Shown here: in pieces, positions 29,888 to 32,896 of the stretch
Numbering within the stretch: the first letter of the stretch is position 1
How the letters are laid out: every line of letters starts with the position of its first letter
Source of the DNA: Actinomycetota bacterium
GTDB taxonomy: Bacteria > Actinomycetota > CADDZG01 > WHSQ01
Assembly: GCA_030446465.1 (NCBI GenBank)
Contig: JAUJNI010000002.1
Location: 845,069-881,172, forward strand
Reading direction: 5' to 3'
Length of the DNA: 36,104 nucleotides
The notes under the pieces: generated by a model
Database searches by the model: none
Told to the model about the DNA's origin: nothing
What the model saw: the letters and a program-made list of their open reading frames with translations, nothing else
Translations under genes and position numbers: made by a program

Positions 29888-30415
29888 TCAACTGCCTACT
29901 TGAAGCGCGAACTCTTGATGCGATGCAGTGGCAACGTAAAAACGCCAGTAGTCGGGATCAATAGCAACGCTGGGATTATGGATCCTGCCGCATCCAATCC
30001 CGAGCCGTCTTAGAAAGAACGCTACATCTTCGAGGTCCGCGCGATCCTTTTGTACAAATTGAACGTAAAAACGGGCCTCTGCCCGCCGCGGCACGCCGCC
30101 TTCCGCATCGAAATAGCCTGGTACGAACGCCCTCACTGCGTCCAGGTCAGCCAGAATCGGCGGTTGGGGCAGGTGCGATGTTTCAAGAACCCATAAGGTC
30201 CTGTTCTTGCCCTCCCGATATATCCAGCTTCTCGCTCCTAGTCGACTCACCATCAGCTGCAGCGTGGATAACCAACATAGGTTCGCCTGGCAGAAACGGA
30301 ACGTGTTATGGATTCTGCTGAGTGTGCCGTCTCGGCTGGCGCCAGCGAGGTATGCCTCCAGACTCGCCTGATCTGTGGCGTTTACCTCTTCGATGACGAC
30401 AGATTCGTCGCTCAT
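29888..30415 (-). CDS. LAGLIDADG homing endonuclease, free-standing downstream of 16S rRNA
   Basis: From the ATG at 30415 the product is 175 residues with two LAGLIDADG-type motifs, AYLAGASRDGTL (21-32) and AFVPGYFDAEGGV (96-108). Each has an acidic residue at the metal-binding end (Asp29, and Asp103/Glu105). Two motifs in one chain mean a monomeric enzyme with two half-domains; at about 175 residues it is compact. Between them lie RFCQANLCWLSTLQLMVSRLGARSW and the strand/helix FYVQFVQKDRADLEDVAFFLRRLGIG, typical of the fold. Such enzymes cut at an intron-less allele to promote intron homing. It lies 54 nt downstream of the 16S trailer stem and 171 nt from the nearest intron, not inside it. 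No Shine-Dalgarno is visible, and the local GC is lower than in neighbours. Confidence 0.85.
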   Translation of the reverse strand: MSDESVVIEEVNATDQASLEAYLAGASRDGTLSRIHNTFRFCQANLCWLSTLQLMVSRLGARSWIYREGKNRTLWVLETSHLPQPPILADLDAVRAFVPGYFDAEGGVPRRAEARFYVQFVQKDRADLEDVAFFLRRLGIGCGRIHNPSVAIDPDYWRFYVATASHQEFALQVGS

Positions 30416-30469
30416 CACACACGATAACGAGGGCCTGCGACAGAAAAGGGTGGCCCGATGGGGCCGCCG

Positions 30470-30500
30470 CGCTCTTTGAGCGCTGAACAGTGTGCCTGCC
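30470..30500 (-). repeat. 16S trailer arm of the rRNA processing stem
   Basis: On the rRNA strand this 31-nt sequence pairs with the leader arm at 32849-32879, with 29 of 31 positions complementary and two central mismatches. The pairing encloses the whole 16S gene, including both introns, as expected for the RNase III processing stem. It ends 40 nt beyond the mature 3' end. Confidence 0.85.
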
Positions 30501-30536: not shown

Positions 30537-30586
<50 letters not shown>

Positions 30587-30928
30587 CGTGTGACTCCCCC
30601 TGTCGCCAAGGGGCACGGACTATATCTTCATCCTGGTCTCGATCACGAGTGGCGACGCTTCCTCTCTTGTCGAGTTTCTCAAGCGTCGTTTCCAGGAGCT
30701 CGGCGTGTAGTCTCTGAGGGGTCAACCTCACCAAGTGAGAATCCGGTGAAGCGACTTCCCTGCTGATTGTCCGCACCGGATGCATTTTCACCGCCGTCTT
30801 TCCGCACAAAGCTCCGCTATACGCGTGCTGTTGCGTAAAGAACGATCGGTAGCACCGGATACACGGGGTTTCCAGCAAACAGCCGAGTTTTTCACTCGCC
30901 GTTACCGGCGAGGGTCGCAACGTTGCTT
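30587..30928 (-). ncRNA. Group I self-splicing intron in 16S rRNA after E. coli position 1498 (S1498)
   Basis: The 5' exon ends GUCGU (to U1498) and the 3' exon begins AACAAGG (A1499). The intron ends in G, as group I introns do. P1: exon GUCGU pairs with intron nt 11-15 GCGAC, with the U-G wobble at the splice site. P10: intron GUU (nt 8-10) pairs with exon AAC. Core elements are a Q-like AATCAGCAGGGAAG, R-like CAGAGACTACACG (30704-30716) and S AAGATATAGTCC (30617-30628), which pair as P7 (GACTA/TAGTC). A P2 hairpin (CTCGCCG-GTAA-CGGCGAG) and a 3' hairpin (CCCC/GGGG) are also visible. No credible ORF lies inside. Confidence 0.93.
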
Positions 30929-31018
30929 ACGACTTCACCCCAATCGCAGATCCCACCTTCGACGGCTCCCTCCCAAAAGGGTTGGGCCACCGGCTTCGGG
31001 TGTTACCTACTTTCGTGG

Positions 31019-31062
<44 letters not shown>

Positions 31063-31313
31063 ACGTTGCTGATCCGCGATTACTAGCGACTCCGACTTCA
31101 TGGGGTCGAGTTGCAGACCCCAATCCGAACTGAGACCGGCTTTTTGGGATTCGCTCCACCTTGCGGTTTCGCAGCCCTTTGTACCGGCCATTGTAGCATG
31201 CGTGAAGCCCTGGACATAAGGGGCATGATGACTTGACGTCATCCCCACCTTCCTCCGAGTTGACCCCGGCAGTCTCCTACGAGTCCCCGGCATTACCCGC
31301 TGGCAACATAGGA

Positions 31314-31379
<66 letters not shown>

Positions 31380-31441
31380 CCACCTATCGCAGGCCCCGAA
31401 GGACACCGTATCTCTACGGCTTTTCCTGCGTAGTTCAACCC

Positions 31442-31484
<43 letters not shown>

Positions 31485-31485
31485 G

Positions 31486-31549
<64 letters not shown>

Positions 31550-31642
31550 GGTGCTTAATGCGTTAGCTTCGGCACGGAGCGGGTTGAAGGCCGCCCCACA
31601 CCTAGCACCCAACGTTTACGGCTGGGACTACCAGGGTATCTA

Positions 31643-31910
31643 CACGTCTGTTACTTTCCCTCGCTGCAATCGCAGCAAAGTACCGACCAAGTTCCCTTGG
31701 CGGGCCCCCATTTCTGAGAGCCTCTCGTTGTTACCAACGAGGTCGGACTGTGTCATCACCCTCGTGCCGCAACACGAGGGGCCGGCGTGCAGTCTCTACG
31801 GGGTCAAAGATCACCACGATCTCGACTTCCCTCGGCGTTATCCCCAGAGGGACGTTCGCCGATACAGCCAGTTTAGGCATCAGGGTTACCCCTGAAGAGG
31901 ACCGATACCA
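31643..31910 (-). ncRNA. Group I self-splicing intron in 16S rRNA after E. coli position 788 (S788)
   Basis: The 5' exon ends ...CAGGAU (U788) and the 3' exon resumes UAGAUACCC (U789). The intron ends in G. P1: exon AGGAU pairs with intron nt 9-13 GUCCU, with a U-G wobble at the splice site. P10: intron GGUAUC (nt 2-7) pairs perfectly with exon GAUACC (791-796). R-like GTAGAGACTGCACGC (31785-31799) and S-like GATGACACAGTCC (31745-31757) pair as P7 (GACTG/CAGTC). P8 is an 8-bp hairpin (CCCTCGTG/CACGAGGG). P2 (CAGGG-GTAA-CCCTG) and a P9 hairpin (CTCGTTG-GTAA-CAACGAG) are clear. There is no ORF inside. Confidence 0.95.
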
Positions 31911-32157
31911 ATCCTGTTTGCTCCCCCAGCTTTCGCGCCTCAGCGTCAGGTAAGGCCCAGAGAACCGCCTTCGCCACCGGTGTTCCTCCTGATATCTGCG
32001 CATTTCACCGCTACACCAGGAATTCCGTTCTCCCCTACCTACCTCCAGCTATCCCGTATCGAATGGCCTCTCAGAGTTGAGCTCCGAGCTTTCACACCCG
32101 ACGTGGATAGCCGCCTACGCGCGCTTTACGCCCAATAAATCCGGACAACGCTCGCCC

Positions 32158-32190
<33 letters not shown>

Positions 32191-32322
32191 GGCCGGGGCT
32201 TCTTCTGCGGGTACCGTCACCGTGAGGCTTCGTCCCCGCTGAAAGAGGTTTACAACTCGAAAGCCGTCATCCCTCACGCGGCGTCGCTGCGTCAGGCTTT
32301 CGCCCATTGCGCAAGATTCCCT

Positions 32323-32373
<51 letters not shown>

Positions 32374-32551
32374 GCCACGCTCTCACGCCAGCTACCCGTC
32401 ATCGCCTTGGTAGGCCATTACCCCACCAACAAGCTGATAGGCCGCGGGCCGATCCCAGACCGAAAAACTTTGCCCTGCATGGCATGCGAAACGCAGGGGT
32501 CATCCGGTATTAGCAACGGTTTCCCGTTGTTATCCCGGAGTCCGGGGCACG

Positions 32552-32582
<31 letters not shown>

Positions 32583-32848
32583 TTCAGGCAGAGTGGTTAC
32601 CCACTCTGCTTTCGTCGCTCGACTTGCATGTATTAAGCACGCCGCCAGCGTTCGTCCTGAGCCAGGATCAAACTCTCCGTAGAGATTTCAATCCTTCAAC
32701 GAACGCTAACGAATCGAAGATTCGAAAGCGCTTGTGTCGGATTTATTCATAAGTACTGCCTGTCAAAGGGTTGCTCGGACACAGAGGTCCGTCTCATCTC
32801 TTTGACGAGGTCGCACTGGTCTCCGATCCACCTCTTAAGAGGCTTCTC

Positions 32849-32879
32849 GGCAGGCACACTGTTCAGTTCTCAAAGAGCG
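32849..32879 (-). promoter_or_regulatory. 16S leader processing arm containing boxA
   Basis: Read on the rRNA strand, this segment starts CGCTCTTTGAGAACTGAACA. It resembles the conserved actinobacterial pre-16S element with a boxA-like GCTCTTTGA, the Nus antitermination site. It pairs with the trailer arm at 30470-30500. Position 166 nt before the 16S 5' end agrees with this role. Confidence 0.8.
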
Positions 32880-32896
32880 ACTTTCCGGCCCCCGGG

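Follow-up and report, generated by a model that had tools for sequence, protein, structure and literature searches.

Group I introns inserted at position 1498 of the 16S rRNA gene (S1498, also termed 16IS10) and carrying LAGLIDADG_3 or LAGLIDADG_2 genes have been described in CPR bacteria (Tsurumaki 2024, PMC11270868). I-ShaI, a dimeric LAGLIDADG_1 enzyme of a CPR 23S rRNA intron, cleaves its insertion site (PMC11270868). Collaborative or trans homing has been described in phages, where the psbA intron has F-CphI as its neighbor (PMC6083498; reviewed in PMC3984707); mobE is a further phage case (PMID 19773422, cited therein).

In the window, by which we mean the whole 36,104-nucleotide stretch of DNA analyzed, an ORF-less intron and a nearby free-standing homing endonuclease gene (HEG) occur together, as in collaborative homing (Table 1). 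A sequence-only reading had placed this gene on the same strand as 16S, just past the processing stem and outside both introns, and had reported that neither intron carries an ORF. The exact ORF, from ATG to TGA, was confirmed at that place, starting 128 nt past the 16S anti-Shine-Dalgarno motif and beyond the processing stem, and no homing endonuclease ORF was found within S788 or S1498 of the window. Both introns exceeded the Rfam gathering score, with S1498 reaching 66.1 bits against RF00028. At the S1498 junctions, the 5′ exon ends in GUCGU1498, the IGS is GCGAC with a U·G at the 5′ splice site, and the last intron base is G, followed by AACAAGG of the 3′ exon. Searching the genome of the window with a 16S query gave a single copy. 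The same genome also holds a LAGLIDADG_1 gene inside its 23S gene (G000:C6:643300-643713, L074); this lies about 230 kb from the 16S gene, and this 23S and the 16S are therefore unlinked. The S1498 and S788 introns interrupt the sites of two widely used primers, 1492R and 806R (window positions 30580-30592 and about 31625-31645, respectively), and organisms of this kind may thus escape 16S surveys.

Table 1. Features of the 16S rRNA locus and its downstream flank, in window coordinates
Feature	Positions	Strand	Basis
Free-standing LAGLIDADG homing endonuclease gene, 175 aa	29888..30415	(-)	ORF, Pfam, alignment, predicted fold
Promoter-like CTGTC-N11-TTATCGT, ending 5 nt ahead of ATG	30421..30443	(-)	sequence
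Terminator-like hairpin (GGCGGCCCCATCGGGCCACC) and CTTTTC tract, separating 16S from endonuclease gene	30440..30468	(-)	sequence
16S processing stem, 3′ strand; pairs with about 32850-32880	30470..30500	(-)	sequence
16S rRNA gene with its two group I introns	30541..32683, 3′ end approximate	(-)	sequence, Rfam
S1498 group I intron, ORF-less, 342 nt	30587..30928	(-)	Rfam and junctions read from sequence
P8 of S1498 intron, folded hairpin domain, gene-less	30630..30697	(-)	comparison with relatives
S788 group I intron, ORF-less, 268 nt	31643..31910	(-)	Rfam and junctions read from sequence

The translated gene matched Pfam LAGLIDADG_3 (PF14528) with E = 1.5e-12 and a score of 48.1 bits (cut-off, 22.5), which shows that it is no chance ORF. 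Both motifs of a double-LAGLIDADG protein, YLAGASRDG (D29) and GYFDAEGG (E105), were found with their catalytic acids. The structure prediction that the sequence-only reading had proposed as a check gave a confident AlphaFold model (pLDDT 88.9), and its best fold matches in the PDB were I-DmoI structures, with a TM of about 0.63; a profile search of PDB sequences with the window protein found no relative. By its motifs, acids, and predicted fold, the product is a double-motif LAGLIDADG monomer with putative endonuclease activity. The lower GC content noted for this gene in the sequence-only reading was also borne out, at 55.3% compared with 64.2% for the whole window and with a GC3 of 0.59 compared with 0.79–0.84 in two neighboring genes, and no Shine-Dalgarno was visible ahead of its ATG.

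Among GTDB contigs, we found six Patescibacteria relatives of the window endonuclease, and those in the window's own phylum, presumably Actinomycetota, came from G002, G016, G018, and G339. All nine intron-resident homologs (the six from Patescibacteria and those of G339, G018, and G016) occupy the P8 loop of an S1498 intron, a count in which the G339 gene is full, the G018 gene is cut at a contig end, and the G016 gene is an internally deleted remnant. The window enzyme shared 41–50% amino acid identity with the full-length intron-resident genes, all of them from S1498. The spacing between the two conserved S1498 core elements was 550–566 nt with a gene and 261 nt in the G016 remnant, and it was 72–90 nt in the window, G002, and G003, where P8 is empty. 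S1498 introns were sought by splice-site pattern, which also returned chance matches (e.g., G082), and only sequence-checked introns were counted. The intron-resident proteins share a conserved SWHPRK tail that continues into the ribozyme core, and the window protein stops (..VGS) just ahead of this tail. The alignments indicate that the window gene is homologous to the S1498 intron HEGs but lies outside the P8 location typical of them. An action on the 788 site had been considered as well, but in two relatives, G018 and G019, the gene within the S788 intron is of the LAGLIDADG_2 type, and S788 was rejected as the cognate intron. Judged by these family assignments, the cognate intron of the window endonuclease is S1498, because all intron-resident relatives reside there and the S788 HEGs are of the LAGLIDADG_2 type. 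Of the explanations offered in the sequence-only reading, departure of the endonuclease from its intron is the favored one, as the intron-resident homologs are confined to S1498 and the free form occurs only in the window and G002. Searches for relatives of the window endonuclease by tblastn in phages and plasmids and in two viral-contig scans were all empty, leaving a phage origin of the gene without support.

G016 has two 16S copies (L026 and L065), one with the S1498 intron holding the deleted endonuclease and the other intron-less, partial, and located at a contig end; the deleted gene together with an intron-less copy is as expected without an active enzyme. The 16S gene of G018 (L027) carries inserts at S788 (LAGLIDADG_2 gene), near position 1064, and at S1498 (LAGLIDADG_3 gene). 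In G007 (L030, about 1690-2110), an ORF-less insert near 16S positions 1396-1400 looked group-II-like by eye, and no Rfam family matched it above the gathering score; the beginning of an S1498 intron was also present at the contig end of this genome.

We then compared the region downstream of 16S, hereafter the slot, among relatives. G002, which belongs to another genus of the same family, has the gene downstream of 16S (interrupted by the contig end) and an S1498 intron with an empty P8, as in the window, and the two enzymes cluster together in the tree (support 92/94). In G003, of the same family, the S1498 intron (54.5 bits) is empty as well, but the slot gene (L062, G003:C199, about 505-993) is an unrelated LAGLIDADG_1 (Pfam E = 1.2e-10). 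This enzyme could belong to another site, since the middle part of the G003 16S gene is missing from the assembly. It showed about 30% identity to all LAGLIDADG_1 genes of 23S introns and joined the gene of a 16S intron at about position 1400 (L041) solely via two long branches. It was the only free LAGLIDADG_1 among matches with placeable flanks; the other placeable matches in the sampled phylum were all in rRNA, nearly all in 23S. An assembly artifact was rejected, given that the window contig spans 1.05 Mb and that G002 shows the arrangement again, as does G003 with a different enzyme.

Slot genes were present in three of 13 downstream regions checked, namely those of the window, G002, and G003. 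The sequence-only reading had suggested looking for relatives that have the endonuclease without introns; no slot gene was found at any of six S1498-intronless loci (G001, G005, G006, G009, G021, and the second G016 copy). Nor was a slot gene seen beside introns holding a gene or remnant (G339 and the first G016 copy) or beside the HEG-less S1498 introns of another family (G032, L128; G071, L127). Genomes of the G032/G071 family yielded no LAGLIDADG_3 relative at any location, indicating that the intron persists there without one, a point against the reading that we prefer below. In a Fisher test, slot genes at 3 of 5 loci versus 0 of 6 intronless loci gave p = 0.06, and p = 0.035 versus all others. 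The co-occurrence of slot gene and S1498 intron is consistent with trans homing but not conclusive, because few loci were sampled and all three positives come from one family. It could also reflect a protein kept in trans for folding or splicing the S1498 (or S788) intron and not for DNA cutting. Some LAGLIDADG proteins are known as maturases, and gene and intron occur together in the window and G002. We nevertheless consider such a role very improbable: both catalytic acids are retained, the introns of G071 and G032 occupy the same site with no such gene, and in G003 the enzyme is an unrelated one.

The spacer between 16S and the gene bears on how the gene may be expressed. The sequence-only reading had considered a primary transcript shared with 16S probable; this found no support, as a GC-rich, terminator-like hairpin with a T-run lies downstream of the processing stem and upstream of the endonuclease ATG. 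A comparable hairpin follows 16S in G002, G005, and G006 and is also visible in the G003 sequence. Because this hairpin stands between 16S and the gene, co-transcription is unlikely and the slot gene probably lies outside the normal 16S transcript, with read-through from 16S as a possible route into it. Upstream of all three slot genes (window, G002, and G003), we found the element CTGTC-N11-YTAKNGT, with identical internal spacing and 5–7 nt before the ATG. The CTGTC-N11-YTA element was not seen in the after-16S regions of four gene-less relatives (G001, G005, G006, and G009). We infer that it may be a promoter giving a leaderless mRNA, which, if real, would account for the missing Shine-Dalgarno.

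Two unrelated HEGs in one slot (window and G002 versus G003), as if the slot itself were the target, together with gene-less relatives that also lack the element, would suit an independent selfish gene that cuts and spreads into the intergenic slot by intronless homing, with the adjacent intron incidental. We regard this explanation as quite improbable, in that the closest relatives of the window gene are all S1498-intron genes and slot genes were seen only where an S1498 intron is present.

We next examined divergence and constraint. The window and G002 enzymes were 48% identical and their introns 84% identical, whereas intron-resident pairs showed 46–65% identity between enzymes and 58–75% between cores. 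By this comparison, the free gene is diverging faster relative to its intron than the intron-resident genes are. The contrast between 48% and 84%, which may reflect rapid change, relaxed constraint, or separate acquisition, speaks against the reading that we prefer, a relocated gene that acts in trans. It would fit a stranded relic, dislodged from its intron, without a homing role, and decaying by drift; the lower GC content, the decaying copy in G016, and the HEG-less introns of G071 and G032 without any gene point the same way. Yet the 175-aa frame is open with both catalytic acids, the predicted fold is confident, and the promoter-like element is common to three slot genes. Moreover, the identity between the window and G002 by codon position (0.53/0.61/0.32) shows divergence biased to third positions, which indicates constraint at the protein level. 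A relic therefore seems unlikely to us. The S1498 intron RNA itself seems to be maintained, because the window and G002 differ in the stem of the P8 hairpin by changes that compensate each other.

Capture of a free-standing endonuclease by an intron is the textbook direction, and collaborative homing has been put forward, on the basis of gene pairs in phages, as a stage in which introns acquire endonucleases. At this locus, the N-terminus of the window protein suggests the opposite direction, from intron to flank. Its EVxA resembles ELLA of same-phylum intron-resident genes, at equal distance to the motif, and this ELLA is translated from a strand of the ribozyme P8. The nine residues before the first motif, compared with the intron-resident segment, gave a sum of matches of 14 (p = 4e-5 for composition-random sequences), although the segment was picked after viewing the alignment and this value is only a guide; among protein windows, 2 of 167 and 1 of 78 did equally well. 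A free-standing ancestral form, captured later by an intron elsewhere, would concern origin only and is compatible with trans homing. A free clade standing as sister to all intron-resident genes is compatible with the tree, which is unrooted, and such a direction has been described for phage systems (PMC3984707). We judge this origin unlikely, since the N-terminus looks like a leftover of the intron and intron-resident forms are widespread, occurring in several lineages of Patescibacteria and in three families within the window's phylum, with the free form in one family.

Overall, we think it reasonably probable that the gene is an S1498 intron HEG that moved from P8 to the downstream flank of 16S and acts there in trans (collaborative) homing. 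Its lineage and relocation are well supported by the comparisons above; direction, expression, cleavage at 1498, co-conversion, and present mobility are what we infer from them. The location of relatives in S1498 introns and the co-occurrence point to the S1498 insertion site as the probable target. The enzyme would be expressed from its own, probably leaderless, transcript and would recognize and cut intact 16S around U1498/A1499 in intron-less DNA. Repair from the donor would then copy the ORF-less S1498 intron into the cut 16S, and the adjacent endonuclease gene could be co-converted along with it, because it begins less than 200 bp from the cut site. The host would be immune to its own enzyme, because the only detected 16S copy carries the intron at the target. 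More tentatively, the downstream-16S flank in this family might be an exchangeable endonuclease slot with a common promoter, formed by an endonuclease leaving its intron and moving ORF-less 16S introns in trans. If true, collaborative homing would here be cellular and rRNA-based and would have arisen by endonuclease exit, the reverse of the usual account.

The sequence-only reading had called the arrangement the best candidate in the window for an undescribed mobile system. This stands in part: the pairing of a 1498 intron with a HEG (PMC11270868) and collaborative homing in phages (PMC3984707) are both described, but a search of open-access papers gave no account of a bacterial chromosome in which an rRNA-intron endonuclease stands free beside its emptied intron. 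The CPR S1498 introns, of which we found six loci, share with the window the insertion site, the intron core, and a homologous LAGLIDADG_3. Their gene lies inside the intron (in P8 in the loci read), whereas the window gene has a start and stop of its own and lies outside 16S, in a host genome placed in another phylum. I-DmoI, from an archaeal 23S rRNA intron, is likewise a double-LAGLIDADG monomer of similar size and similar fold, but shares only about 16% identity with the window protein and belongs to another intron type and site. I-ShaI is also of the rRNA-intron LAGLIDADG kind; as a single-motif homodimer of another Pfam family, encoded inside its intron, it is a nearer parallel of the G003 slot gene. 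The phage systems of F-CphI and mobE resemble the window in that a free-standing endonuclease is thought to act on the target of an enzyme-less neighboring element. Unlike them, the window system is in a bacterial chromosome and on 16S rRNA, where the 1498 region is among the most conserved stretches of bacterial DNA and would thus offer such an enzyme a wide range of possible target genomes. The phage enzymes come from an unrelated family, whereas the window enzyme is homologous to the resident gene of the same intron. Homologous enzymes inside and outside one rRNA intron, together with remnant and empty stages, thus occur within one bacterial lineage, which makes the direction and rules of exchange testable in a single set of genomes.
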